Positions 1,846 to 26,620 of a stretch of DNA of 64,000 nucleotides are shown here, piece after piece (position 1 is the first letter of the stretch; each line of letters opens with the position of its first letter). The DNA is taken from assembly GCA_019115845.1 (NCBI GenBank), contig DXCU01000052.1, positions 1-64,000 on the forward strand, written 5' to 3'. Under the pieces are notes generated by a model that saw nothing but the letters and a program-made list of their open reading frames with translations, did no database searches and was not told where the DNA came from. This DNA is from Candidatus Rubneribacter avistercoris. GTDB taxonomy: Bacteria > Actinomycetota > Coriobacteriia > Coriobacteriales > Eggerthellaceae. The position numbers and the translations under genes are program-made.

Positions 1846-2294
1846 GGCAACCTCGCTTCGCAATGATGCGCCCATCCTACGCTTGATTTCTTTCAAACTC
1901 CTTGATTCTTTTTAAAAAGCGAACGCGCGCTAAAGGTGCGGAACTGTTTGAGCGCTTGGGACACGGGTGATTTCGGGCTGTGCATACGAGGGTTTCCAAG
2001 CCTTCGAACTTCTTCGCTTCCTCATCCCCCACTCTTCGCCCCCTTCATCCCTCCTCGCCTCGCTTTTGCCTCGCAATATTTTGATGAGAATTCGATATGA
2101 AAGATTCAGGCGGGCGGGGGAGGTTTTTCGGGCAAGCCCTTAAAATCTAGAATCGTGTGCGATGCGGCTTGGAGGTTTCCCGTGCCGCCGAGGGCCAAGG
2201 GGCCGATTGCCCCGCCGGGGGGCCGCCGCATCTGCCCGATCCGTCGCGCCAGCGCGCAGGGTCGGGCGCGCAGATGAGGAAGAAAGGAGAAGGC
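1846..2294. other. Intergenic stretch between the AAA ATPase and the dmsA-like gene
   Basis: No convincing gene is seen. The part nearest the ATPase is AT-rich (TTCTTTTTAAAAAGCGAA near 1908) and may hold its promoter. A TAGAAT hexamer at 2148-2153 is a possible -10 for the dmsA-like gene, but no good -35 partner was found. A minus-strand frame crossing this stretch has the composition of a shadow of the plus-strand gene. Confidence 0.4.
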
Positions 2295-4976
2295 GTGCCC
2301 GCTACCAGGGAAAACCCGTCCATAGGCGTTGGCTGTCGCTCGGTTTCGGCACAGGGCGCCTTGGGCGCCAAAGCTGCGCCGGGCGGCGGTGCGTCGAAGC
2401 GGGCCGATGACGCCTATGCCAAGGAGGGGCAAGTCAGGGCCGTCGGCGCCAAGCCGTTCTCCTCCGACAAGGTGGTGTGGAACGCCTGCCATGCGAACTG
2501 CGGAAACCGCTGCCCGCTCAAGCTGTATGTGAAAGACGGCGTCATCGTGCGCGTGGAGGGCGACGACGAGGGGTCGGACGGCTTCGGCCCCGGCCGCGTT
2601 TTCCAGCTGCGTCCTTGCGTGCGCGGCCGGACGGCCCGCCGCCTCGTCCACAACGAGACGCGTCTCCGAAAACCGCTGCGGCGCGTGGCGGGCACCAAGC
2701 GCGGCCAGGGCGTTTACGAGGAGATATCGTGGGAGGTCGCCATCCGCGAGATCGCCGGCATCATGAAGGGCATCAAGGAGGAGTACGGCAACGACGCCTT
2801 CTACCTTCAGTACGGCACCGGCCGGATGGACGGCGTCGTGGCAAAGTCGTGGCCGCCCGATGGCACCGTGTTCGCCCGCATGATGAACTGCTGGGGCGGC
2901 TATCTGCGCCATTACGGCACGTACTCCGCAAGTCAGATCAGCCGGGAGCTTCCGCTGCTCAACGGCGACGCCCACGCCAACAATGAGGCTGCCGACCTCG
3001 TGAACTCCAAAAACATCGTGCTGTTCGGCAACAATCCGGCCAACACCCGCATGTCCGGCTCGGGCATGATGCACCTCGTTACGCAGGTGCGCCTGCGAAA
3101 CCCCAAGGTCAACATCGTGGTGGTGGATCCGCATCTGTCCGACACCGTCGTGGGCGCGGCCACCACGTGGGTGCCCATCCGTCCCGGCACGGACGCGGCG
3201 CTCGTGGCCGGCATGGTGCAGTACCTCCACGCCAACGGCATGCTTGACGAGGCGTTTATCCGCGAGCGGTTCATCGGCTTCTACTCCGACACCTTCCTGG
3301 AAGACGTGAAGCAGGGCGAGCCTGCGAGCAACGTGTTCTTCGGCTTCGACAAGGAGGGTGCGCTGGCGGTTGAGGAGGACCTGTCTTACGAGGCATACCT
3401 CAACGGCACCGGCGCCTACGAGGGTTCGGGCCCAAAGACCCCCGAGTGGGCCGCAGCCATCACCGGCGTTCCGGCCGGCACCATTCGCGCGCTGGCCGAG
3501 CTGTACGTGAACGGCCCCACGGCCACCATTCAGGGCTGGGGTCCGCAACGCCATTTCAACGGCGGCAACTCCGCGCGCGCCATCGGCCTGATCGCGGCCA
3601 TCACCGGCAACGTGGGCATCTCCGGCGGCGGCTCGGGCGCGCGCGAGGCTGTGGGCGGCGTGGCCTGCAACGTGCCGACCGGGCTGGACTGCTTCCCCGA
3701 GAAAAACACGGTGAGAACCTGCATCCCGTTTTTCGGGTGGTTTCGCGCTATCGAGGACTATCGATCCATGAACGACGCCACCTGGGGCATTCGCCGCTAC
3801 GACGACGAGGGCAACCTGCTTTTAGCCGAAACTCCCGGCGAGATCAGCCTGAAAGCCCCCGTCAAGTTCATCTGGAACTACGGCTCCAACGTCATGATGG
3901 GCCAGCATGCCGACATCAACGACTGCCTGCGCATCTACAACCTGCCTGACGAGAAAGACTCCGGTCTGCGCTGCGTGGTCACCTGCGATGTGTACCTGAC
4001 GCCCACGGCCATGGTCTCCGACTACATTTTGCCGGGCACCACCAGCTTCGAGGAGACGGACGTGGTGCAGGGCGGCGCCGCGTGGGCGGGCTTCGTCCTG
4101 TGCGAAAGCCCTGCCATCGACCCGCTGTTCGAGTGCAAGCCCGTCTACGAGATCTGCTCGCTTCTGGCCGAGGAGCTGGGCGTGGCCGAGGAATTCACCG
4201 AGGGCAAATCCCAGGAGGACTGGGTGCGCTGGTGCTACGAAAAAGGCAAGAACGCCGGCGAGGACCTTCCGGACAGCTTCGAGGAGTTCAAGGAAACGGG
4301 CCTGTTCAAGCGAGCCGATTGTCACGAACCCCAGGTGCACGCCCCCAAGGCGCTGCCCACGCCCTCCGGTAAGTACGAGGTGTTCTCCAAGCAGGCGTAC
4401 AACATCTCCAAGCAGTGGGACCTCACGGCTGCCGGCTTTGTGCCCGAGGACGGCCTGGACCAGATCACCCCGTGTCCCGTATGGTACGAAAGCTTCGAAG
4501 GATACGGGGATGCGGAGACACGAAAGGGCTACCCTTTCCAGCTGATCGGCCATCACGCCAAAACGCGCACGCATTCCTCGTACGGCAACGTGGACTGGCT
4601 TGAGTCCGTGGCGCCGCAGCAGTGCTGGATCAACGCGCGGGATGCCGCCGGCTTGGGTGTGGAGAACGGCGACGAGGTGATTGTGTCCACCAAGCGTGGC
4701 CGCGTGAAGATCGCGGCCAAGGTGACCGAGCGCATTATGCCCGGCGTAGTGTCCATTCCGCAGGGCGCGTGGTACAGCCCCGAGAGCCGCGACGTTGGCA
4801 AACTGGGCAGTGTGGACAACCTTGATCTGGGAGGATGCATCTCGGTGCTGACTTCGCAGCGGCCCACGGCCATTTCGAAGGGCAACGGCGTGCACTCCAA
4901 CCTCTGCAGGATCGAGAAGGTGCAGGGCGCGGGGCGAACGGCACGAGACGCAAGGCGTAAAGGGGGCGAGTCATGA
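2295..4976 (+). CDS. dmsA: DMSO-reductase-family molybdopterin oxidoreductase, catalytic subunit (DmsA-like)
   Basis: About 893 residues. The [4Fe-4S] ligands Cys65, Cys69 and Cys73 (NACHANCGNRCP) and Cys108 (PCVRGR) follow DmsA spacing. The block with SWPPDGTVFARMMNCWGGYL and GTYSASQI matches DmsA, with Ser211 as the probable molybdenum ligand. WGPQRHFNGG, GNVGISGGGSGARE and the C-terminal TSQRPTAISKGNGVHSNL are also DmsA-like. Reduction of an S- or N-oxide is likely but the substrate is unproven. GTG 2295 is chosen for its AAAGGAG site five bases upstream; ATG 2274 and GTG 2157 are in-frame alternatives. None of the possible N-termini contains a twin-arginine motif, which is unusual for this family. 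The stop overlaps the next gene (ATGA). No anchor gene follows. Confidence 0.88.
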   Translation: MPATRENPSIGVGCRSVSAQGALGAKAAPGGGASKRADDAYAKEGQVRAVGAKPFSSDKVVWNACHANCGNRCPLKLYVKDGVIVRVEGDDEGSDGFGPGRVFQLRPCVRGRTARRLVHNETRLRKPLRRVAGTKRGQGVYEEISWEVAIREIAGIMKGIKEEYGNDAFYLQYGTGRMDGVVAKSWPPDGTVFARMMNCWGGYLRHYGTYSASQISRELPLLNGDAHANNEAADLVNSKNIVLFGNNPANTRMSGSGMMHLVTQVRLRNPKVNIVVVDPHLSDTVVGAATTWVPIRPGTDAALVAGMVQYLHANGMLDEAFIRERFIGFYSDTFLEDVKQGEPASNVFFGFDKEGALAVEEDLSYEAYLNGTGAYEGSGPKTPEWAAAITGVPAGTIRALAELYVNGPTATIQGWGPQRHFNGGNSARAIGLIAAITGNVGISGGGSGAREAVGGVACNVPTGLDCFPEKNTVRTCIPFFGWFRAIEDYRSMNDATWGIRRYDDEGNLLLAETPGEISLKAPVKFIWNYGSNVMMGQHADINDCLRIYNLPDEKDSGLRCVVTCDVYLTPTAMVSDYILPGTTSFEETDVVQGGAAWAGFVLCESPAIDPLFECKPVYEICSLLAEELGVAEEFTEGKSQEDWVRWCYEKGKNAGEDLPDSFEEFKETGLFKRADCHEPQVHAPKALPTPSGKYEVFSKQAYNISKQWDLTAAGFVPEDGLDQITPCPVWYESFEGYGDAETRKGYPFQLIGHHAKTRTHSSYGNVDWLESVAPQQCWINARDAAGLGVENGDEVIVSTKRGRVKIAAKVTERIMPGVVSIPQGAWYSPESRDVGKLGSVDNLDLGGCISVLTSQRPTAISKGNGVHSNLCRIEKVQGAGRTARDARRKGGES

Positions 4977-16001: not shown

Positions 16002-17426
16002 TCAGACCCTCGGGTCGCCCTTCGCCAGATCCCGCAGCTCTTCTTCCCGGTGAACCTCGCATTTGAGGAAAAGGTTGCGACGGTGGGTTTTCACTGTTTC
16101 GCGGGCGATGACCAGCTCCGAGGCGATGTCGTCGATGCTCTTGCCCTCCAGCATCAGCTCAAGGATCTCCGTTTCGCGCGCCGTGAGTCCGAAACGCGCG
16201 GCCAAGGAGCGCGCGGCGTCTTCTTGACTGATCTCACCCTGAGCCTTCGACGAAGATACGGCGTTCCCGTCGTACAGGGAAATGGGGGCGAGATCGTAGT
16301 CGTTGGGCAAGATGAAAATGGTCGCAGCAATGATCAGGGCGGCGATAATGCTGAACCAGGCGGATAGGTCGGCGTCGGACACTCCCTGGGCCATAAGAGC
16401 AAGGCAGGCCTGGCCGCCAAAGAAGACAAGGACCCCGTGCACGCCGTATGCGAAACCGAACAGTCGAAGCGCCGAGGCTCCGTTGCGCCAACATTGATGA
16501 ACGAGAACGGCGACGCTCAGTATTTTGACGAGTTCGTCGCATGCCGATCCGCACGTGTCGGAAATAAGATCCATCAATGGAAACTGAGTGGGCATCAGCA
16601 GAAACACGACGGCGGTGAAGGGGAGCAGGATGCGGCAGACGAACGAGAGGCGAAACCGGGATCCCCATATGGCCATGCCAAGGAGGACGATGCAGGCCAT
16701 GGCTAACGAGCCGACGGCTGTGTAAGAGCCAGAGGCGAACATCGCGTTCCCGATCATGGGTTCGCGAAACGCGAGCGCGAAACCGAAAAGGGACAAGAGT
16801 GCGACTATGCGTGCAAAAAGATTCCTGTCGACCGATGCTTTGGGACTCGCTTCGAGGGGGCTAACGAATCGGCCGCTCAATTTCAACGAGAGGATTGCGA
16901 TTGAAGGGGCAATGAATCCGCAGAGGATCAAGGCTTCAGTTCCTGCCGTGTAAAGCGGGGCGACAAGGGAGGGGGTCACCAGCGCAGAGAGAAGGTAGCA
17001 TATGAGCGCTGCGAGTGGTTTGAGGAATGTGATCGATTCGAACCAGAGCATGGAGGTTGCACCGATCCCCAGTCCTCCGAGGCACGCGCCGCCGAACTGT
17101 AGCATGGAAGCGACGCTCGGCATGCGAATCGAGGCGATCATGAGCACGGCGCTTGCCGTCATGGCCGCCGCACTCGCTAGGTAGGCGGATCGTTTGTCCA
17201 CGAGGGACGAAACGCGCGTTGCCATTGCGAAACAGCAGAAGAATCCCACTGTTCGGAACAGGATGAACACTTGATGGGAATTGCACGGCGTGTCGGGAAG
17301 ATCTATAAGTTCCCCAATGAAGAAAATGTCGGCCCATCCATGGAACAACGCGTAGGCCGTCGTGAGCAACGCCATTGCGCGGCATGCCTCAAGGGGAATC
17401 CCCGCCTTTTGCGTCCCTGCTTCCAT
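16002..17426 (-). CDS. Polytopic membrane protein with C-terminal LuxR helix-turn-helix
   Basis: 474 residues: about 12 hydrophobic segments followed by a LuxR DNA-binding domain (GLTARETEILELMLEGKSI, IASELVIARETVKTHRRNLF). This architecture is expanded in Eggerthellaceae, where such proteins commonly sit beside respiratory reductase genes. Here it is divergent from the molybdoenzyme operon at 18355-25060, with a small winged-helix gene between, so it probably controls that operon in response to a ligand sensed in the membrane. ATG 17426 has GGGAGAGG six bases upstream; an in-frame extension to 17477 is less likely. Confidence 0.9.
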   Translation of the reverse strand: MEAGTQKAGIPLEACRAMALLTTAYALFHGWADIFFIGELIDLPDTPCNSHQVFILFRTVGFFCCFAMATRVSSLVDKRSAYLASAAAMTASAVLMIASIRMPSVASMLQFGGACLGGLGIGATSMLWFESITFLKPLAALICYLLSALVTPSLVAPLYTAGTEALILCGFIAPSIAILSLKLSGRFVSPLEASPKASVDRNLFARIVALLSLFGFALAFREPMIGNAMFASGSYTAVGSLAMACIVLLGMAIWGSRFRLSFVCRILLPFTAVVFLLMPTQFPLMDLISDTCGSACDELVKILSVAVLVHQCWRNGASALRLFGFAYGVHGVLVFFGGQACLALMAQGVSDADLSAWFSIIAALIIAATIFILPNDYDLAPISLYDGNAVSSSKAQGEISQEDAARSLAARFGLTARETEILELMLEGKSIDDIASELVIARETVKTHRRNLFLKCEVHREEELRDLAKGDPRV

Positions 17427-17750
17427 GTAGACCTCTCCCTTTGCGGCTCTCGCTTTTCGCAGCCATCGCCGTGTCACGCCCTCGTTTCCCGTCTGATTCG
17501 TCGGTGAATATTATAAAAGCCGGCAGGGCGGGGCATCAAATGCCGTCCTCCGACAAACCTGGATTGACGGTTTTGGCCTTTGATCGCGAACGGACAACAT
17601 AATAGCTGGTCATAAGGCATAACTGCGCGCCGGTTAGAAAAGGGGTTAGAAGCGGTTAGAAAATCTACCCTTGAATTTAAGCGATTGCCGGTAGTGTTCA
17701 TCGCTCGTCTTTTCCCTATCGTCGTATTCGACGAGGGGGGTGAGAAACCA
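17427..17750. promoter_or_regulatory. Divergent regulatory region with GTTAGA direct repeats
   Basis: 324 bp between the LuxR gene (-) and the winged-helix gene (+). Three GTTAGA units at 17633, 17645 and 17655, spaced 12 and 10 bp, form a candidate regulator-binding array. They resemble the TTTAGA array at 25396-25451. No gene is seen in this stretch. Confidence 0.45.
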
Positions 17751-18305
17751 ATGGAGAACACGAAAGACATGGAGAGCGCGGTTGGGAGCATCAGGCGACG
17801 CATCTCATCCGAGCCTCGCTGCGAGAAAGCGCTCTATCGTATTTTGAAAGACTGCATCGAACCGATATCGTTCGACGATTTGGAGCAAAGGATTTGCTTG
17901 TACCCTGAGATGAGGGTGCGGCCTCAGGAGCCATCGACGCTCGTTTCGTGGTTGGTGGACGTCGGCGCGCTCGAGGCCGCCGAGTTTGGCGGCGACCCTG
18001 CTGCAATTGCGCTGACCGCCACCGAAGCGGGAAGGGCCGTGTGCGCCGCGCACGAGGATTCTGACGATGTGGGGCGCCTTATAGAGGAAGCCGGCCCTCT
18101 TGGGCGCGCCTATCGGCGCGTGCTCGAACTCTGCCGCGTCCCTCGGACGAAGAAGGCTTTGGAGGAGGCGCTTGTGGCAGAGGGACTCCTCGATACGAGA
18201 GCGCGGCAAGTGAGCTGCTTCCTTGACAAGCTTGAGAAGGCTGGCGGCCTGGTATGGGACGGGGGTTGGACGACCACGCAGCGCGGCTTCGCGTATCTCG
18301 GCTAG
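17751..18305 (+). CDS. Tandem winged-helix protein upstream of the molybdoenzyme operon
   Basis: 184 residues. Two segments of similar pattern are visible. Residues about 25-90 read ALYRILKDCIEPISFDDLEQR, then STLVSWLVDVGALE and ALTATEAGRA. Residues about 115-182 read AYRRVLELCRVPRTKKALEE, then ARQVSCFLDKLEKAGGL and WTTTQRGFA. Each looks like a winged-helix fold, so the protein seems to be an internal duplication. It may be a DNA-binding regulator or a maturation adaptor. ATG 17751 follows a GAGGGGGGTGAG site; an in-frame extension upstream is unlikely. It ends 49 bp before the catalytic gene and is probably co-transcribed. No family name can be given. Confidence 0.75.
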   Translation: MENTKDMESAVGSIRRRISSEPRCEKALYRILKDCIEPISFDDLEQRICLYPEMRVRPQEPSTLVSWLVDVGALEAAEFGGDPAAIALTATEAGRAVCAAHEDSDDVGRLIEEAGPLGRAYRRVLELCRVPRTKKALEEALVAEGLLDTRARQVSCFLDKLEKAGGLVWDGGWTTTQRGFAYLG

Positions 18306-18354: not shown

Positions 18355-21126
18355 ATGGGCAAAGCTCAAATCACCCGCAGGTCGTTCATCGGCGCGACCG
18401 CCATAGCGGGTTTGGCCGCCGCCGTGGCGGCAGACGCGGAACTGACGGGTCTTGTATCCAAACCCAAAGAGGCGTTTGCGGCCGAGGAATCCGAAACGAG
18501 GATTGTGAAAACCCTTTGCGCCGGCTGCGTGGGCCGCTGCGGCGTGCTCGCTCACGTGCAGAACGGCCGTGTGGTGAAGCTTGAAGGCGACCCGGATCAC
18601 GTGTACTCGAAAGGCAACATCTGCGCCAAGGGGCTCTCGTTCATCCAGGCGCTCTACAACCCCAATCGCATCAAGTACCCCTTGAAGCGCGTGGGGGAGC
18701 GCGGCTCGAACCAATGGGAGCGCATCAGCTGGGAGCAGGCGATAGACGAGATAACCGACCAGCTTCTTGAAATAGAGGAAAAATACGGCGCCGAAGCCAT
18801 CCAGGTGGGATACACCGGCGGCGGCTCCACCTATTACGACGGCTATGCGAGCCGGTGGTGCCATGTCATGGGGTGCCACAAGTACGAGCCGGGCGGCTTG
18901 CAGTGCCTGCAACCGCGCCAGACCATGTCGAGGCTCATGTGGGGTCAGAACAACAACGACTTCGTGAGCTACGAAGGTCTTAACGCTGAGTTCATCTGCG
19001 GCGATCAGACCAAGTGCATGGTGCTGTGGGGGTCGAACCCCTCAAGCTCGTGCGTGGCGAGCGCCGGGCGCCCCGCCGCGCAGATTCGGGCTTGGGGCGC
19101 GAAGACGGTGGTGGTCGATCCGCGCATGACCGCCGATGCCGCGAAGGCCGACGTCTGGCTACCGGTGCGTCCTGGCTCCGACGTGGCGCTGCTCATGTGC
19201 TGGATCAACTACATCATGGACAATCGTTTGTACAACGAGGAGTCGGTGCTGCGTTGGACCAACATGCCCTATCTGATCAACCTTGAAACAGGGTTCACCC
19301 TCAAACCTGAAGAGGCGGGATTCGAACCCGAAGAGCTTGCCTACGTGGTATGGGACGCTAACACCAACGCCGCAAGGAAGATGTCCTACCCCTACGATGA
19401 AAGCTTGGCGCCTGCTTTGGAGGGCGGCCCCTACGTGGTGAACGGCATCGAGTGTAAGCCGGCGTTCCAGCTCATCCACGAACGCTGCAGCGAGTGGACC
19501 GTCGAGAAAGCCGCCGAAACCTGCTGGCTCGAACCCGGCATGATAGAGGAGGCCATCCGGCTGTACGCCGAGAACACGCCGGGATTCATGTCCATGGGCA
19601 TGACCGGCGACCACGCCGTGAACTCGCCTCAGGTGGGCATTTGCCAGCTTATCTTGGAGGCCATGCTGGGCAATTACTCGAAGCCCGGCACCATGATGCA
19701 GATGTTCTCCGCCGACGGCCCTTACTGGCCCGAACCTGGCACTCTGCAGCATTTCATGAGCGAAGAGCAATACAAGAAGCGTTTCGGCTGCATCGAGTAC
19801 AAGGCCGGCTGCAGGCGCGAATGGACGCACAACTCGCTCATGCTCGACGGCATCATGACCGGCGAGCCTTATCGGGTGCGTGCTGTCATCGAGCGGTCGT
19901 GCAATAAGATGATCAACATGCCCAACGCCGCCAAATGGGCCGAGGCCTACGAATCCATGGACCTCAACGTGCATCACTTCATGTACCCCACGTCGTTCTC
20001 CATGTTCTGCGACTATCTGCTGCCCACCACCGAGTGGCTTGAGAATCACTGGGGTGCTGGCCTGGAGAACAAGTTCTACGTGCGTCAGCCTACCACGCAC
20101 TTGTGGGAGGCGGTGGAGGATCCCATGCTCTTTTCCCTGCTGGCCAAAGCCATGGCTGACAAGGGGCATCAGCGCTTCATCGATTCTTTCGATCCGGAGA
20201 AGTGCAAGCCCACGCCCGAGAACCTTCCCGAGGGCTTCCTGATCGACCCGGGCGAGGCAACCCAGATTCCATGGGAGGCTACCATGGAGGATATGCTCAC
20301 CGCCAATTTCCGCTCTCAAGACCCCGATGCTATGAGTTGGGACGAGTTGTGCGATTACGTGCAGGAGCACGGTTATTACCAGGAAACCTCCGACGAGGAC
20401 TATCAGCAGTTCTACGTGTATGCGCAAATCGACGAGGAAACGGGCAAGCCCCAGGGCTTCAGCACCCCTTCCAAGAAGCTCGAATGCTACGGCGAGCAGA
20501 TCATCACGCTCGGTCGCACCGGCGCTCCCTGGGCGTTCTACGAGCTGGAGCCCGCCAGCTATGAGTACGATCCGCTGCCGTACTACCGCGAGCCCAACGA
20601 AAGCCCGCTTGACGAGGAGCTGGCGGCGGAGTACCCGCTCGTCATCACCGGCGGCCATGTGAGCATGTACACGCACGGCACGCTGCGCAACGTTCCGTGG
20701 ATTCGCGAGCGGTTCCCCGTGCCTGAAGTGTGGGTGAACCCCGTGGACGCTGAGAAGTACGGCATCGAGCACAAGGGTTGGGTGTGGATCGAGAGCAAGC
20801 GCGGAAAGACGCAGGCGCGCGCCAACATCACCAAGCGCATCGCTCCCGGCGTCACTTGGATGGAGCGCTTCTGGTATCCCGAGACCGTGGGCACTTCCAC
20901 CAAGGGCTACACCGAGTCCAACATCAACATGCTCACGGATGACCAAGGACCCTTCGCCGACTTCATAGGTTCGGTCACCTACCGCGGCTTCCAGGTGAAG
21001 ATCACCCCCGCCGACAGCGCGCCCGAGGGCATATGGACCGAGCCCGAGCAGTTCGAGGCGTGGCTGCCCAACTTCGACGAGGTGGAAGTGACCGACGACA
21101 AAGACCAGTTCAAGGGGGTATATTAA
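18355..21126 (+). CDS. Tat-exported molybdopterin oxidoreductase, catalytic subunit
   Basis: 923 residues. The signal ITRRSFIGATAIAGLAAAVA is a clear Tat peptide. The [4Fe-4S] motif is CAGCVGRC (Cys55, 58, 62) plus Cys90 (NICAKG). Bis-MGD-binding blocks follow, such as CMVLWGSNPSSS, VVVDPRMT and VRPGSDVALLMCW, with a C-terminal dinucleotide domain near TGGHVSMYTHGTLRN. Cys184 (GGLQCLQP) is a candidate molybdenum ligand by position only. The protein differs from DmsA and falls nearer the polysulfide/thiosulfate, tetrathionate, arsenate and catechol-dehydroxylase groups; I cannot choose between them. AGGAGG five bases before ATG 18355 fixes the start. It is the first structural gene of a six-gene operon. 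Confidence 0.9.
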   Translation: MGKAQITRRSFIGATAIAGLAAAVAADAELTGLVSKPKEAFAAEESETRIVKTLCAGCVGRCGVLAHVQNGRVVKLEGDPDHVYSKGNICAKGLSFIQALYNPNRIKYPLKRVGERGSNQWERISWEQAIDEITDQLLEIEEKYGAEAIQVGYTGGGSTYYDGYASRWCHVMGCHKYEPGGLQCLQPRQTMSRLMWGQNNNDFVSYEGLNAEFICGDQTKCMVLWGSNPSSSCVASAGRPAAQIRAWGAKTVVVDPRMTADAAKADVWLPVRPGSDVALLMCWINYIMDNRLYNEESVLRWTNMPYLINLETGFTLKPEEAGFEPEELAYVVWDANTNAARKMSYPYDESLAPALEGGPYVVNGIECKPAFQLIHERCSEWTVEKAAETCWLEPGMIEEAIRLYAENTPGFMSMGMTGDHAVNSPQVGICQLILEAMLGNYSKPGTMMQMFSADGPYWPEPGTLQHFMSEEQYKKRFGCIEYKAGCRREWTHNSLMLDGIMTGEPYRVRAVIERSCNKMINMPNAAKWAEAYESMDLNVHHFMYPTSFSMFCDYLLPTTEWLENHWGAGLENKFYVRQPTTHLWEAVEDPMLFSLLAKAMADKGHQRFIDSFDPEKCKPTPENLPEGFLIDPGEATQIPWEATMEDMLTANFRSQDPDAMSWDELCDYVQEHGYYQETSDEDYQQFYVYAQIDEETGKPQGFSTPSKKLECYGEQIITLGRTGAPWAFYELEPASYEYDPLPYYREPNESPLDEELAAEYPLVITGGHVSMYTHGTLRNVPWIRERFPVPEVWVNPVDAEKYGIEHKGWVWIESKRGKTQARANITKRIAPGVTWMERFWYPETVGTSTKGYTESNINMLTDDQGPFADFIGSVTYRGFQVKITPADSAPEGIWTEPEQFEAWLPNFDEVEVTDDKDQFKGVY

Positions 21127-21711
21127 ATGAGCAAGATGACCATGGTCATCGATCTGGACCGCTGCATCGGTTGCTATGCGTGCGAGATCGCCTGCAAACA
21201 GGAAAACGACGTGAGCCTGGGTTCGTATTGGAACAAGGTGCAAACCATGGGGCCCTACGGCGACTTCCCCCATGTGGAGATGTACTTTCTGCCCACCATG
21301 TGCCAGCACTGCGAGAATCCCACGTGCGTGAGCGTGTGCCCCACGGGCGCCACCCACCAGCGCGAGGAGGACGGCATCGTGCTGGTTGACCGCGACAAGT
21401 GCATCGGCTGCCAGTACTGCGCGATGGCCTGCCCCTACGGCGCGCGCACGTTCAACAAGAAGCAGAAGGTGGTGGAGAAGTGCACGCTGTGCGCGCATCT
21501 GCAATCCGTGGGCGACAAGCCGGCGTGCGTGAAGTGCTGCTCGGGCGCGGCGCGCCTGTTCGGCGACGCGGAGGATCCCGAAAGCGACGTGTCGAAGGCG
21601 CTGGCCGAGGCCGGCTCCGACGCCGTCCACTCCATGCCCGACGTGGGCAACGGGCCTTCTATCCGTTACATCCTGCACTCGAGCATCGCAACATGGAAGG
21701 AGCTGATCTAG
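21127..21711 (+). CDS. Four-cluster Fe-S subunit of the molybdoenzyme
   Basis: 194 residues starting directly after the catalytic gene's stop. Motifs are CIGCYACEIACKQEN, CQHCENPTCVSVCP, CIGCQYCAMACPYG and CTLC...CVKCCSGAA. It has no signal peptide, so like DmsB it would be carried out with its Tat-bearing partner. The final cluster reads CVKCC rather than the usual CVxxCP, a small departure. It should link the anchor encoded next to the bis-MGD subunit. Confidence 0.92.
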   Translation: MSKMTMVIDLDRCIGCYACEIACKQENDVSLGSYWNKVQTMGPYGDFPHVEMYFLPTMCQHCENPTCVSVCPTGATHQREEDGIVLVDRDKCIGCQYCAMACPYGARTFNKKQKVVEKCTLCAHLQSVGDKPACVKCCSGAARLFGDAEDPESDVSKALAEAGSDAVHSMPDVGNGPSIRYILHSSIATWKELI

Positions 21712-21712
21712 C

Positions 21713-22618
21713 ATGGAAATCCAGTGGTCGCTCGTGATATTCGCGGCGTTCATCTGCTGGGGCGCCGGCACCTACGTGGCCGCGGTGGCGTTTCGCGGGC
21801 TGCTTGGGGCGTCTGAGCGCATCATGCGGCCGGCGTTCGTGCTGTCGGCTGTCGCGGTGGTCGTGGGCGCGGTGGCGTCCATGACCCATCTGGGGCACCT
21901 CGACCGCATCTTCGGCGTGCTGTCGAATCCCGCCTCCGGCATCTTCGTCGAGGGCCTCTCGTCGGCGGTGCTCGTGGTGGTTGCTGCGGCGTACTTGGTG
22001 GCGGCGGGGCGCAAGGCGTCGTCCGGGGTGCTGCGCGCGCTTGCCGTGGTCGGCGTGGTCCCGGCGCTTGTGGTTGTGTTCGCGGTGGGGTCGAGCTATC
22101 TCATGGTGGCGCGCCCTGCTTGGGACGTTCCTGCGTTGCCGATAGCGTCCGTGACAGCGGCGCTGTCCATGGGGGCCGTGACCGTGCTCGCCATCGATGC
22201 GTTCACGGCGCGTGGTGCGCGGGATGCCGCCGGAGAGGAGAGGGCCGCTTCCCGCATGGGCGTTGCGACCCTTGCGCTCATCGGTATCCAGGCTGTTGCG
22301 GTGGCCGCCTACGCGGCGTCGGTGGCCACCGCCCCTTACCAGGAGGCTTCTCGCTCGGCCGCGCGGATGCTTGCGGGCGATATGGCGCCGCTGTTCTGGC
22401 TGGCCGTGGTGGTGCTTGGCGTGGCGGTGCCGTTCGCGGCCACGCTCGCGCAGCGGCGCGGCTTGGCCCTTGCGGCTTCGGGCGAGGCGGTTGCCCGGTC
22501 GCGTGCGGCCGTGACGCTCGGCGTGGCCGCCTTGTGCATGGTGGTCGCGGTCATTGCGTTCCGCGTCATCATGTTCTCGCTGGGAAGCAGCATCATCGAT
22601 TTCGAGTTCACCCTGTAG
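21713..22618 (+). CDS. DmsC-type membrane anchor / quinol oxidase subunit
   Basis: 301 residues, about eight hydrophobic segments, opening MEIQWSLVIFAAFICWGAGT as in DmsC-family anchors. The ATG lies one base after the previous stop. It would oxidise menaquinol and pass electrons to the Fe-S subunit. Together with the two preceding genes this forms a complete DMSO-reductase-type complex with the active site outside. The sequence is very rich in Ala and Val, as expected for high-GC membrane proteins. Confidence 0.85.
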   Translation: MEIQWSLVIFAAFICWGAGTYVAAVAFRGLLGASERIMRPAFVLSAVAVVVGAVASMTHLGHLDRIFGVLSNPASGIFVEGLSSAVLVVVAAAYLVAAGRKASSGVLRALAVVGVVPALVVVFAVGSSYLMVARPAWDVPALPIASVTAALSMGAVTVLAIDAFTARGARDAAGEERAASRMGVATLALIGIQAVAVAAYAASVATAPYQEASRSAARMLAGDMAPLFWLAVVVLGVAVPFAATLAQRRGLALAASGEAVARSRAAVTLGVAALCMVVAVIAFRVIMFSLGSSIIDFEFTL

Positions 22619-22644
22619 CGCGTTAGGCCTTCGCGTTTTGTTGG

Positions 22645-23322
22645 ATGGGAATGATCATGGGCATATGTGCCGAGTACCTTGAGATGGCGGAGAACCGCAT
22701 CGCGTTGTACGGCTTTCTTGCGCGGGTGTACCGCAGAGAGGTGGATGCGGAGCTGCTCGACGCCATGAGGCGGATAGATTTTGGAACGGAGGAGGGCGAC
22801 GCGCGCTATGCGGAGGGGACGGCCCGGCTGCAGGCTTATCTGGCCGGGACCTCCTTCTCGATGCGCACGGATCTTGCCGTGGACTACGCCAAGGTGTTCC
22901 TGGCGGCGGGCATTCCCCAGGGAGGGGCGGCGTTTCCTTACGAGAGCGTGTACACAAGCCCCGACGGCCTGGTCATGCAGGAGGCGCGCGATGAGGTGGT
23001 GCGTCTCTACCGTGCGAAGGGGCTGGGCGTGGAAGGCGCGGTGGAGCCTGAGGACCATATCGCCTTCGAGTTCGAGTTCCTGGTCCGGTTGTGCTGCGAA
23101 GGCCGGGAGGCCGCGCAAGCGGGTGATGCGAAGGCGCTTGAGGCGAGCATCGAGGAGCAGCGCGCGTTTCTTGCGACCCATGTCCTGAACTGGGTGCCGC
23201 GGTTTTGCGAGGACGTCGTCCGTTATGCGAACACGGAGTTTTACCGGGCTATCGCCCTTATGACGGCGGGTTTTGCGGCCATGGACGCCGAGGTGCTCGA
23301 CCAGATGGGGGCCGGGCGATGA
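22645..23322 (+). CDS. TorD/DmsD-family molybdoenzyme chaperone
   Basis: 225 residues, all-helical pattern. AVDYAKVFLAAGIPQGGAAFPYESVY matches the TorD-family segment (D-Y-x-x-x-F, then P-x-E-S-V-Y), and EPEDHIAFEFEFL is the second conserved block (E-x-x-D-H). These cytoplasmic chaperones bind the Tat signal and help cofactor insertion before export. The client is presumably the Tat-bearing catalytic subunit of the same operon. The start could be ATG 22645 or ATG 22657. The stop overlaps napG (ATGA). Confidence 0.9.
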   Translation: MGMIMGICAEYLEMAENRIALYGFLARVYRREVDAELLDAMRRIDFGTEEGDARYAEGTARLQAYLAGTSFSMRTDLAVDYAKVFLAAGIPQGGAAFPYESVYTSPDGLVMQEARDEVVRLYRAKGLGVEGAVEPEDHIAFEFEFLVRLCCEGREAAQAGDAKALEASIEEQRAFLATHVLNWVPRFCEDVVRYANTEFYRAIALMTAGFAAMDAEVLDQMGAGR

Positions 23323-23945
23323 TCTCGCAGATCTCACGCAGGTCGTTTTGCGTGGCGGCCGGCGTGTCGGCGACGTTGGTCGCGCTTGGCGGCGCAGGGG
23401 CGCTCACGGCGCAGGGCGCGATGCTGCGCCCTCCCGGAGGCCAGGACGAGCGGGCGTTCGTTGCCGGGTGCACCCACTGTGGGCGCTGTGTGAGCGCATG
23501 CCATGCGCGGGCTATCGGAGCGGCTTCGCTTGCGGACGGATTGCTGGAGGCGCGCACGCCGGTGATGCGCTACAACCTGGGCTTCTGCGACTTTTGCGGC
23601 GATTGCGCGCGCGTATGCCCCACCGGGGCCCTGCGTCCTTTCGACGTGGAGGCGGCTTCGGCGGGCGACGTGGACGCCTGCTGCATCGGCAAGGCCCGCC
23701 TGAGCCGCGAGATCTGCCTCGCCTGGACGTCGAGCAGCTGCAACCTGTGCTACGAAGAGTGCCCCTACGAGGCGATCTCGCTGGATGGCGACGGGCATCC
23801 CGTTGTCGACGAGGCGCGGTGCAACGGATGCGGCGTATGCGAGTACGTGTGCCCTGTGCTCTCGCTGCGCAGCTACATCGGCGGCACCGCCCGAGCCATC
23901 GCGGTGGTGCCCGTTTCTCCGGGCGAAGAGGAGGTGGGTCGATGA
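23319..23945 (+). CDS. napG: NapG-type Tat-exported ferredoxin
   Basis: 208 residues with Tat signal ISRRSFCVAAG followed by a hydrophobic stretch. Four Fe-S motifs are present: CTHCGRCVSACHARAIG, CDFCGDCARVCPTGALR, CNLCYEECPYEAIS and CNGCGVCEYVCPVLSLRSY. NapG works with NapH to pass electrons from menaquinol to periplasmic nitrate reductase in organisms that lack or bypass NapC. Here it sits in a non-Nap molybdoenzyme operon that also has a DmsC-type anchor. It overlaps the genes on both sides by 4 bp. Confidence 0.88.
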   Translation: MISQISRRSFCVAAGVSATLVALGGAGALTAQGAMLRPPGGQDERAFVAGCTHCGRCVSACHARAIGAASLADGLLEARTPVMRYNLGFCDFCGDCARVCPTGALRPFDVEAASAGDVDACCIGKARLSREICLAWTSSSCNLCYEECPYEAISLDGDGHPVVDEARCNGCGVCEYVCPVLSLRSYIGGTARAIAVVPVSPGEEEVGR

Positions 23946-25060
23946 GCGCTGAAGGGTTCACTGAGCTTGGGACGATACAGCTCAGGAAAACCGAGCAGCC
24001 CGCCAAGGGGCTCGAAAGGTTCGATGAAGGGTCCGATGGATTCAGGGGGTTTGCCGGAGGATCTGAGGAGTTCGATAGGGAACCCGAGAGGTCTTCGGCG
24101 GGAAGCTCGGAAGAGTCCATTGAAGAACTCGAAGGGTTCGATGCGGAATCCGGAGAATCTGACGAGAGGCCCGATGGGCCTTCCGAGGAGCGTTCCGCAT
24201 CGCTTCGGCCTCGCCGCATGCATACGCGCGCGATGCGTGCGGCAACCGCGTTTGCGGTGGTGGCGGTCTACGGCATCGGCATAGCGCTGAACACGGGGCT
24301 GGGGTCGCTTTCGGCTTGGGGCGTGGGAGGCATCGCGGCGGTGTGCCCCCTCGGCGCGTTGGAGACGATGATAGCGGGGCGCGTCGTGTTGCCGCTGCCC
24401 TTGGTGGCAATCGCGTTGGCCGCATTGGCGGCCGTGCTGCTCGGGCGCGCGTTCTGCTCGTGGGTCTGCCCCGTTCCATGGGCGCGCGAGCTGGTTTTCA
24501 ACCGGCAGGAGCGCGATGCCTTCGCCGCTGACCGCAAGAAGGGCCGGGTTCCTGCGAAGCGCGGGCGATCGAGGTTCGGCGGGAACGGAGCGCCGGCCCT
24601 TGGCGTCCTCGGCGTCACGTTGGCGACCACGCTCGTGTTTGGATTCCCGGTGTTTTGCCTGGTGTGTCCTATAGGGCTTGTGTTCGCCACGGTGTTTGCA
24701 CTCATCCGGCTGGTGGCGTTCAACGAGCTGGTGATCGATGTCATCGTGTTTCCGGCGCTCATCGTGCTCGAGCTTGCGGTGCTGCGAAAATGGTGTGCCA
24801 CGTTGTGTCCGGTAGGGGCGCTGCTGGGCCTGTTCGCGCGTTTCAACCGCACGTTTGCGCCGACGGTCGATAAGGGGAAGTGCTTGGCGGTTTCAGAGGG
24901 TTCCTCGTGCGACGCCTGTCATGCGGCGTGCAACTCCGACATCGACCTTGTGCGCGATGCGGGCACGGGGGCGCTGCACGACTGCACGAAGTGTCGCGAA
25001 TGCGCCGATCATTGCCCTGTCTCTGCTATCTCTTTTCCGTGGCGCGCGAGTGAAAAATAG
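23942..25060 (+). CDS. napH: NapH-type membrane ferredoxin with an acidic N-terminal extension
   Basis: 372 residues. After a hydrophilic N-terminal tail of about 95 residues come four to five membrane segments with two CxxxCP motifs (FCSWVCPVPWARE and FCLVCPIGLVF), then CATLCPVGALLGLF and a C-terminal two-cluster ferredoxin part (CDACHAACNSD, CTKCRECADHCPVSAI). NapH oxidises menaquinol and hands electrons to NapG. The tail is low-complexity, built of imperfect GFDEGSDGF / EGFDAESGES-like units rich in Glu, Ser and Gly. It makes the protein roughly 90 residues longer than ordinary NapH. This is the last gene of the operon. Confidence 0.88.
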   Translation: MSAEGFTELGTIQLRKTEQPAKGLERFDEGSDGFRGFAGGSEEFDREPERSSAGSSEESIEELEGFDAESGESDERPDGPSEERSASLRPRRMHTRAMRAATAFAVVAVYGIGIALNTGLGSLSAWGVGGIAAVCPLGALETMIAGRVVLPLPLVAIALAALAAVLLGRAFCSWVCPVPWARELVFNRQERDAFAADRKKGRVPAKRGRSRFGGNGAPALGVLGVTLATTLVFGFPVFCLVCPIGLVFATVFALIRLVAFNELVIDVIVFPALIVLELAVLRKWCATLCPVGALLGLFARFNRTFAPTVDKGKCLAVSEGSSCDACHAACNSDIDLVRDAGTGALHDCTKCRECADHCPVSAISFPWRASEK

Positions 25061-25380: not shown

Positions 25381-25459
25381 AGGTATTGAGAACCGTTTAG
25401 AGATGTTTAGAACCGTTTAGAGATGTTTAGAACTATTTAGAACACTTTAGAGGTATTGA
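25381..25459. repeat. Six TTTAGA units at exact 10-bp spacing between two AGGTATTGA copies
   Basis: TTTAGA starts at 25396, 25406, 25416, 25426, 25436 and 25446. AGGTATTGA occurs at 25381-25389 and again at 25451-25459. The array ends about 45 bp before the AAA ATPase start codon. One-helical-turn spacing places all units on one DNA face, as for a cooperative binding protein. The rest of the 25138-25380 gap is GC-rich with no gene. Confidence 0.85.
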
Positions 25460-25504
25460 AAAGTAGCAAATATATCGTGGTGAGCGACATTGAGGAGCGC
25501 GCGC

Positions 25505-26620
25505 ATGCGGACCCAGGAAAACCCCTTTACTCCGAGTTTTGGTGAGCGACCTCTCCACTTCGCCGGAAGACGAAAAATCATTGAGGCCATGGCTCGTGCA
25601 TTTGAGGGCGAACGCCGTCGTCCCGACCTGACCACCATTTTGTCAGGTGCTCGCGGAACGGGGAAAACGGCGCTTCTGTCGCTCATTGCGAACGAAGCCG
25701 AGCGGCGCGGTTGGGTGACGGTTGCCACAACGGCGATGCCCGGCATGCTTGAAGATGTTGAACTGGGAATCAGGCGAAAGGCGGCTCATCTTATAGACGC
25801 TTCTCCTTCTTCCGCGCGTGTTTCCGGCATCGGCATACCCCAGATGGTGGACGTTGAGTTCGAGCGTATCCCGGGGCCGGAGACTTCGTGGCGTTACAGG
25901 ATGAGCGATTTGCTGGAGGAACTGGGATCGCTTGGGACGGGCGTGCTGATAACCGTCGATGAAGTGGATCCCCAACTTGACGAGATGATCAAACTGGCCG
26001 CAACCTATCAGCATTTCGTGCGGGAGGAGCGCAAAGTTGCCCTCGTCATGGCCGGTTTGCCGGGAAGCGTCTCGCGTCTTTTGGGCGACAAGACCGTGTC
26101 GTTTTTGCGGCGGGCCCAAACGGCTCCTCTGGGGCGAATTCCCGATTCGGAGATTGCGGATGCGTTGCGCAAAACGTTGCGCGAGGGAGGCAAGGATGCT
26201 TCCGCCGATGCCTTGCTGCACGCCGCAAGGTCCATCGGCGGTTTTCCGTTTATGATGCAGCTTGTGGGGTATCTTGCATGGGAAGCGCGTCCTGAAAGCT
26301 CCGAATTGACCGTCGATGATTTCGACTATGGCATTGCTCTTGCGCGGGAAGAAATGCGGGAAAGGGTGTTCGAGGCGACCTATCGTGACCTTTCGCGTGG
26401 CGATGCGGCGTTTCTTGAAGCTATGCTCGAAGATGGGCATGAGAGCTCCGTTTCGGATGTGGCACGGCGGCTTGGCTGGTCGGCGTCTCAGGCGTCGCAG
26501 TATCGTCGTCGCCTCATGGACGCGGGGGTTGTTGGGTCGCGCGGGCTTGGCGTGGTCGCTTTCGAGCTGCCGTTTTTCCGCGAGTTTCTTGTCGAGCGGA
26601 TCGGGGGCGGTGAGGTTTGA
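25505..26620 (+). CDS. AAA ATPase with C-terminal winged helix (ORC/AAA_16-like), copy 2
   Basis: 371 residues. ENPFTPSFGE, Walker A GARGTGKTALL, Walker B VLITVDEV and a C-terminal winged-helix segment (SVSDVARRLGWSASQASQYRRR) align motif by motif with the gene at 745-1845. ATG 25505 has GAGGAG seven bases upstream; an in-frame TTG lies 15 bases earlier. The upstream 10-bp-phased TTTAGA array may be its control region. The nucleotidyltransferase gene starts 101 bp downstream on the same strand and could be co-transcribed. Function unknown, as for copy 1. Confidence 0.85.
   Translation: MRTQENPFTPSFGERPLHFAGRRKIIEAMARAFEGERRRPDLTTILSGARGTGKTALLSLIANEAERRGWVTVATTAMPGMLEDVELGIRRKAAHLIDASPSSARVSGIGIPQMVDVEFERIPGPETSWRYRMSDLLEELGSLGTGVLITVDEVDPQLDEMIKLAATYQHFVREERKVALVMAGLPGSVSRLLGDKTVSFLRRAQTAPLGRIPDSEIADALRKTLREGGKDASADALLHAARSIGGFPFMMQLVGYLAWEARPESSELTVDDFDYGIALAREEMRERVFEATYRDLSRGDAAFLEAMLEDGHESSVSDVARRLGWSASQASQYRRRLMDAGVVGSRGLGVVAFELPFFREFLVERIGGGEV

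Follow-up and report, generated by a model that had tools for sequence, protein, structure and literature searches.

A molybdoenzyme operon from a clade sister to the catechol dehydroxylases, in which a DmsC-type anchor and NapGH-like proteins probably form one quinol-input module

In gut Actinobacteria, families of molybdenum enzymes transform drugs, hormones and plant phenols; for most of them neither the substrate nor the source of electrons is known. Here we describe a molybdoenzyme operon in a 64,000-nucleotide stretch of DNA from Candidatus Rubneribacter avistercoris (GenBank assembly GCA_019115845.1, contig DXCU01000052.1, positions 1 to 64,000 of the forward strand; the window). The closest described systems are the Eggerthella-type catechol dehydroxylases (Cdh) Dadh, Cadh and Hcdh, in which a catalytic subunit with Fe4S4 is accompanied by B, C, DadhE, a TorD-like F, a NapG-like G and a NapH-like H (PMC7028382, PMC11887054). 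NapG/NapH-like proteins and LuxR control have already been reported for catechol-dehydroxylase clusters (PMC11887054, PMC9734109). For Dadh in a heterologous host, loss of dadhC was without effect whereas dadhB and dadhD to dadhH all proved indispensable, and AlphaFold 3 (AF3) places G/H against B and C (PMC11887054).

A first-pass annotation of the window had described a catalytic, an Fe-S and a DmsC-type subunit together with NapG and NapH in one overlapping operon (18355–25060), and had read them as two quinol-oxidising systems. All of these genes are present and consistent in strand, and the operon has two further members that the annotation lacked: a conserved upstream gene, E (17751–18305), and a TorD-like chaperone gene, D, between C and G. 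In one-letter labels for the genes other than the catalytic one (CAT), it reads E-CAT-B-C-D-G-H from 5′ to 3′ on a single strand (+), with intergenic spacings of 49, 0, 1, 26, −4 and −4 nt. Our best reading is that G and H are no second independent respiratory chain; they are part of an input module made up of C, G and H, in which G/H is the required conduit. We think it likely that the operon encodes a regulated, exported anaerobic respiratory reductase with C, G and H as one quinol-input module and a probably phenolic acceptor. The genes are the following, with Tat denoting twin-arginine translocation, bis-MGD bis(molybdopterin guanine dinucleotide) and HMM a profile hidden Markov model.

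17751 to 18305, + strand: E, a 184-residue DadhE-like protein, predicted to be a tandem winged helix; its family HMM matches the dadh accessory cluster (129 bits)
18355 to 21126, + strand: CAT, the predicted Tat-exported Mo/W-bis-MGD catalytic subunit, with Tat, Fe4S4, Molybdopterin and Molydop_binding domains
21127 to 21711, + strand: B, an electron-transfer subunit of the DmsB/TtrB type with four [4Fe-4S] cluster motif sets
21713 to 22618, + strand: C, a membrane anchor of the DmsC/NrfD superfamily (NrfD 28 bits; family HMM versus Escherichia coli DmsC 1.6e-14)
22645 to 23322, + strand: D, a DadhF-like chaperone of the TorD family (PF02613 2.5e-33; NF003442 6.2e-29)
23319 to 23945, + strand: G, a NapG-like and DadhG-like Tat-targeted polyferredoxin with four 4Fe-4S sets (best match NapG, 4.4e-23)
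23942 to 25060, + strand: H, a NapH-like membrane ferredoxin with Cx3CP motifs and C-terminal clusters (best match NapH, 4e-16)

The family HMMs of the window operon recovered the Eggerthella lenta dadh region with E at 129, D at 251, G at 232 and H at 273 bits, and in E. coli they found NapG with G (1.8e-35) and NapH with H (8.8e-18). The locus shares parts with several described systems and differs from each. Like the Eggerthella-type Cdh it has the accessories E, F (TorD-like), G and H, a polytopic LuxR regulator and a C-x-x-P-R ligand motif, and its catalytic subunit belongs to the sister clade; unlike them it has the ligand motif QC(Y/L)xPR instead of CKGPR and ~27% identity to Cdh homologues over the length of CAT, and neither a DadhD helicase nor DadhI was seen in the operon. 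With the NapGH of periplasmic nitrate reductase it shares homologous G and H with corresponding cluster motifs, whereas no NapB or NapC cytochrome partner accompanies the pair in the window operon and CAT is not NapA. The only CxxCH haem motif among the operon proteins, CDACH in H, lies in a stretch aligned with the NapH cluster cysteines. The A-B-C layout, the four-cluster B and a DmsC/NrfD-type C with its quinol-site His recall DmsABC and PsrABC, but the catalytic subunit stands in another branch and the window has G/H and E in addition. As a separate observation, H begins with ~80 acidic low-complexity residues (23942–24190) that are specific to the window: homology to relatives starts at residue 78–92, and the extension was unmatched in all relatives found, including the 74%-identical protein of Gordonibacter An230.

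The class of CAT, which the first-pass annotation had left open, was resolved by phylogeny to the level of a clade. Trees were built with FastTree (111 sequences) and IQ-TREE (43 sequences). CAT is a member of an uncharacterised clade, here called X, that is sister to the Eggerthella-type Cdh: in IQ-TREE it falls inside X with 100% support, X and Cdh are each supported at 100%, and so is their union, CAT standing outside the Cdh clade and not nested in it. FastTree concurs on X plus Cdh and on the placement of NapA. Acetylene hydratase branches next outside this group in IQ-TREE (97%), a position that FastTree leaves unresolved (0.39). The Cdh references in these trees are the loci of genome G053, which we take to be E. 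lenta DSM 2243. They were presumptively matched to the published enzymes by order and position, via the locus tags in PMC11887054 and PMC9734109. The trees held no reference sequence of the Gordonibacter-type Cdh, which has two subunits and a catalytic subunit without an Fe-S motif; the window operon, with Fe4S4 cysteines and C, does not fit that type.

The predicted Mo ligand of CAT, Cys184, and its Fe4S4 cysteines (C55, C58, C62 and C90) are invariant in clade X. At the ligand, C-x-x-P-R is common to X (QCYLPR; GLQCLQPRQ in the window) and Cdh (QICKGPR), and NapA differs (ARxCMASAV). The grouping with periplasmic nitrate reductase that would have refuted the view of the first-pass annotation was not found: NapA is distant from CAT, groups with E. 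lenta L082 at 100%, and the NapA model TIGR01706 gives CAT 124 bits against a cut-off of 931. Assignment as pyrogallol transhydroxylase (47 bits only) was likewise rejected, as were ArrA, TtrA, PhsA and DmsA, which were far below curated cut-offs or elsewhere in the tree. An AlphaFold model of CAT from 11 sequences had a predicted local distance difference test score (pLDDT) of 56, too poor for a fold search, and was set aside.

These placements leave considerable room, if somewhat less than an even chance, for a different substrate: CAT may reduce another acceptor, such as a sulfur compound or an N- or S-oxide, or act in the manner of a hydratase, and such a substrate would be compatible with the module of C, G and H. 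X lies outside the characterised Cdh clade. CAT reaches no enzyme-family cut-off in NCBIfam (best 229 versus 778 bits), the nearest models, DmsA/PhsA, being far below theirs, and in profile comparisons the solved chains closest to it are those of acetylene hydratase (262 bits) and polysulfide reductase (256 bits), followed by NapA (128–176 bits) and pyrogallol hydroxytransferase (47 bits). However, the full electron-transfer set speaks against a non-redox hydratase, and the sister relation to Cdh, with common E/F/G/H accessories and LuxR regulator, points to a similar biochemical niche.

By profile searches of the neighbouring genes we surveyed 40 Eggerthellaceae loci and 80 that came from scanning all genomes; two architectures emerged. 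Among the Tat-positive X loci with enough flank, 47 of 54 carry G together with C; 45 also have H within the counted distance, H being present further out in L054 and L055, and AsrA was found in none of the 47. This count treats an 8-transmembrane (TM) open reading frame (ORF) of the Deferribacterales, below the C HMM threshold, as C, and it includes duplicates (L157, L158 and L233), so that the 47 loci are 44 distinct ones. An arrangement of G/H without C in Deferribacterales was rejected on account of that undetected ORF between D and G. Two of the 54 loci (L179 and L193) are AsrAB loci with probably false Tat calls; the signals there and in the AsrAB loci L221 and L222 are likely false pattern matches, with no hydrophobic stretch after the motif. 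The nearest orthologues of the window operon (87–88%) are in Gordonibacter sp. An230 (L157) and Eggerthella sinensis. The gene-order check thus bore out the first-pass annotation in that the attachment of NapGH to a non-Nap enzyme is conserved and not confined to this strain, and it ruled out a local insertion.

The Tat-negative X loci are built differently: 44 of 51 carry AsrA and AsrB, and C, G or H occurs in none of the 51. These partners score above the equivalog cut-offs for anaerobic sulfite reductase (TIGR02910, 390 versus 323 bits; TIGR02911, 336 versus 289 bits), but unlike AsrA/AsrB of that enzyme they adjoin a molybdoenzyme and TorD, which is sometimes fused to the AsrA-like part, and so resemble a module for NAD(P)H input more than a piece of a sulfite reductase. 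Within X the AsrAB loci group together in a single clade (99%), and the outgroup, Cdh, has the exported architecture; given this nesting, the simplest reading would be a single replacement of the quinol module, one evolutionary event and not 44. As a side observation, the AsrA/AsrB equivalog models are met by the apparent molybdoenzyme NAD(P)H module in L190 (11247–13848) and similarly in L193 and L215, and genes of this kind may carry a mistaken sulfite reductase annotation. Among the papers searched, none linked AsrB, TorD and molybdopterin, and the neighbouring genes of X loci in Clostridia and lactobacilli gave no pointer to substrate.

The Tat-less loci bear on a second suggestion of the first-pass annotation, that NapGH serves in activation or repair. 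G/H would then act in the activation, repair or maturation of the Mo centre or Fe-S clusters and not in turnover electron transfer, which we regard as rather improbable. G/H often adjoin the chaperone gene D, and since Dadh protein is made in most accessory mutants, its authors infer that the accessories act after expression, for example in inserting the cofactor (PMC11887054); but the Tat-less relatives keep the ligand motif and the Fe4S4 cysteines without G/H, which weakens the proposal, the presence of G/H tracks export and quinone capacity, and homology relates G/H to a quinol dehydrogenase. As menaquinone markers we used MqnA/D and MenB scoring above its cut-off, two markers in a small sample; one or the other was present in 8 of 8 exported-type hosts tested versus 3 of 9 AsrAB hosts, the three being lactobacilli. 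This distribution fits a quinol role for C, G and H.

C, G and H behave as a single evolving unit. Across 40 complete operons, distance correlations were 0.86 (C-G), 0.84 (C-H) and 0.87 (G-H), and with CAT divergence removed the partial values were 0.64, 0.63 and 0.69, respectively, with 0.65 for B-C. C keeps the DmsC quinol-site His (H65; His59 in the window) in 43 of 45 sequences; in 44 of 45 it also has a Glu (Glu80 in the window) one column from the DmsC Glu87 position, the DmsC residues being taken from PMC8076601. H keeps the NapH Cys motifs, so that both C and H are plausibly quinol-site-bearing. The annotation's view of two quinol-oxidising systems therefore stands in part: the operon does have a NapGH-like pair as well as a DmsC/NrfD-type anchor, but their independence is not upheld by their joint occurrence, co-divergence and joint absence. 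The same observations (partial r 0.63–0.69; all three absent together in the cytoplasmic forms) count against its proposal of electron input at two potentials. Were C and G/H to feed B and CAT separately, at different quinol potentials or conditions, the conserved residues of C and the Cys motifs of H would be accounted for; moreover, activity survived deletion of dadhC in the host used, which shows that G/H can function with that C missing (PMC11887054). Yet a C able to stand in fully for G/H would leave the pair dispensable, and for Dadh it is indispensable; with the joint behaviour of C, G and H, this makes two independent inputs quite improbable.

Several observations weigh against a single quinol-input module of C, G and H. 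Linkage is not strict: L041 (57–58% identity, a draft genome), the closest locus beyond the 87–88% orthologues, has CAT-B-D with no C, G or H nearby, as have L058, L064, L071 and E. lenta L154, and Parasutterella (L214) has C without G/H. Lactobacilli use AsrAB although they have MenB. Co-divergence of B and G is weak (0.26) though transfer from G to B is proposed, and the co-divergence values take no account of shared phylogeny. The module swap is essentially one event, as the 99% AsrAB clade indicates, so the loci are not independent.

Molybdoenzymes abound in the source genome, which has 41 PF00384 matches. It holds five G/H pairs of the X/Cdh type (on C30, the window, and on C37, C48, C75 and C91), each no further than ~10 kb from a catalytic gene of Cdh or X. 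The true nap locus lies apart, on C84, and carries a G/H pair of its own that is more divergent. Since there are more Cdh/X catalytic genes than pairs, G/H could be a general electron hub acting in trans for several molybdoenzymes, its operon position reflecting co-regulation only. Some X loci lack nearby G/H, and the E. lenta array has several catechol-dehydroxylase ABC sets beside one accessory set. We nevertheless hold such a hub to be unlikely, because the divergence of G and H follows that of CAT (r 0.77 and 0.74) and most X operons have their own pair. Further X-like catalytic genes of this genome are L136 (C98), L140 (C91; apparently split over two frames) and L142 (C28). The window itself contains a second molybdoenzyme catalytic gene (2157–4976), which belongs to a DmsA-like clade and has Ser at the ligand position.

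Upstream of the operon lie two further features.

16002 to 17477, − strand: polytopic LuxR-type regulator, divergent to the operon, with a C-terminal GerE helix-turn-helix (5.9e-14) and ~11 TM segments by hydropathy
17632 to 17660, + strand: three GGTTAGA direct repeats, a candidate operator in the intergenic region between regulator and operon, conserved in three species

The regulator is kept beside the operon in loci L039 and L040, belongs to a family described as 12-TM LuxR (PMC9734109), and is probably a substrate-responsive activator. The two-copy GGTTAGA pattern has its only exact match in the genome at 17632–17660. Four GTTTAGA units with a 10-base period at 25395–25431, just upstream of an ORF at 25490–26620, resemble these promoter repeats; besides these two sites the genome has only two weak matches to the repeat pattern.

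By its homology and its position, E is the counterpart of DadhE. Its AlphaFold 2 model (pLDDT 93.8), for which Foldseek matches were mostly ArsR/MarR winged helices (best E 4e-3), predicts a tandem winged-helix fold with high confidence. In the Dadh system dadhE is required for activity, but most inactive accessory mutants still produce Dadh, those of dadR and dadhD being the exceptions (PMC11887054); a protein-directed rather than transcriptional role for E is therefore possible.

In the mechanism that we propose from these comparisons, menaquinol would be oxidised in the membrane by a coupled unit of C and H, and electrons would pass from H to the Tat-exported ferredoxin G, on to B, and then into CAT by way of its Fe4S4 cluster and Mo-bis-MGD centre, where an organic acceptor, probably phenolic, would be reduced. 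G/H would be the required conduit and C the anchor, possibly with a second quinol site. D and E would serve maturation or targeting, and the LuxR protein would sense the substrate.

The NapGH link is already known, having been published for the sister family (Dadh; PMC11887054). New relative to the literature compared are the sister clade X and its distribution, the exchange of the quinol module for AsrAB, the finding that C diverges together with G/H, and the fold predicted for E. A widespread uncharacterised clade is thus placed beside the catechol dehydroxylases, with NapG/NapH as part of its standard kit. More tentatively, clade X may be a large unnamed respiratory molybdoenzyme family that exchanges its electron input as one cassette. 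In quinone-bearing anaerobes the enzyme would be exported and receive electrons from menaquinol through coupled DmsC and NapGH; in fermenters it would be cytoplasmic and draw on NAD(P)H through an AsrAB-type unit. The quinol unit, with its two membrane proteins C and H, might then conserve energy and not be merely redundant. That one catalytic core comes with either a membrane quinol module or a soluble NAD(P)H one amounts to a natural experiment, by which the contribution of NapGH to non-Nap enzymes becomes directly testable, and the soluble form may be easier to express, aiding substrate discovery.

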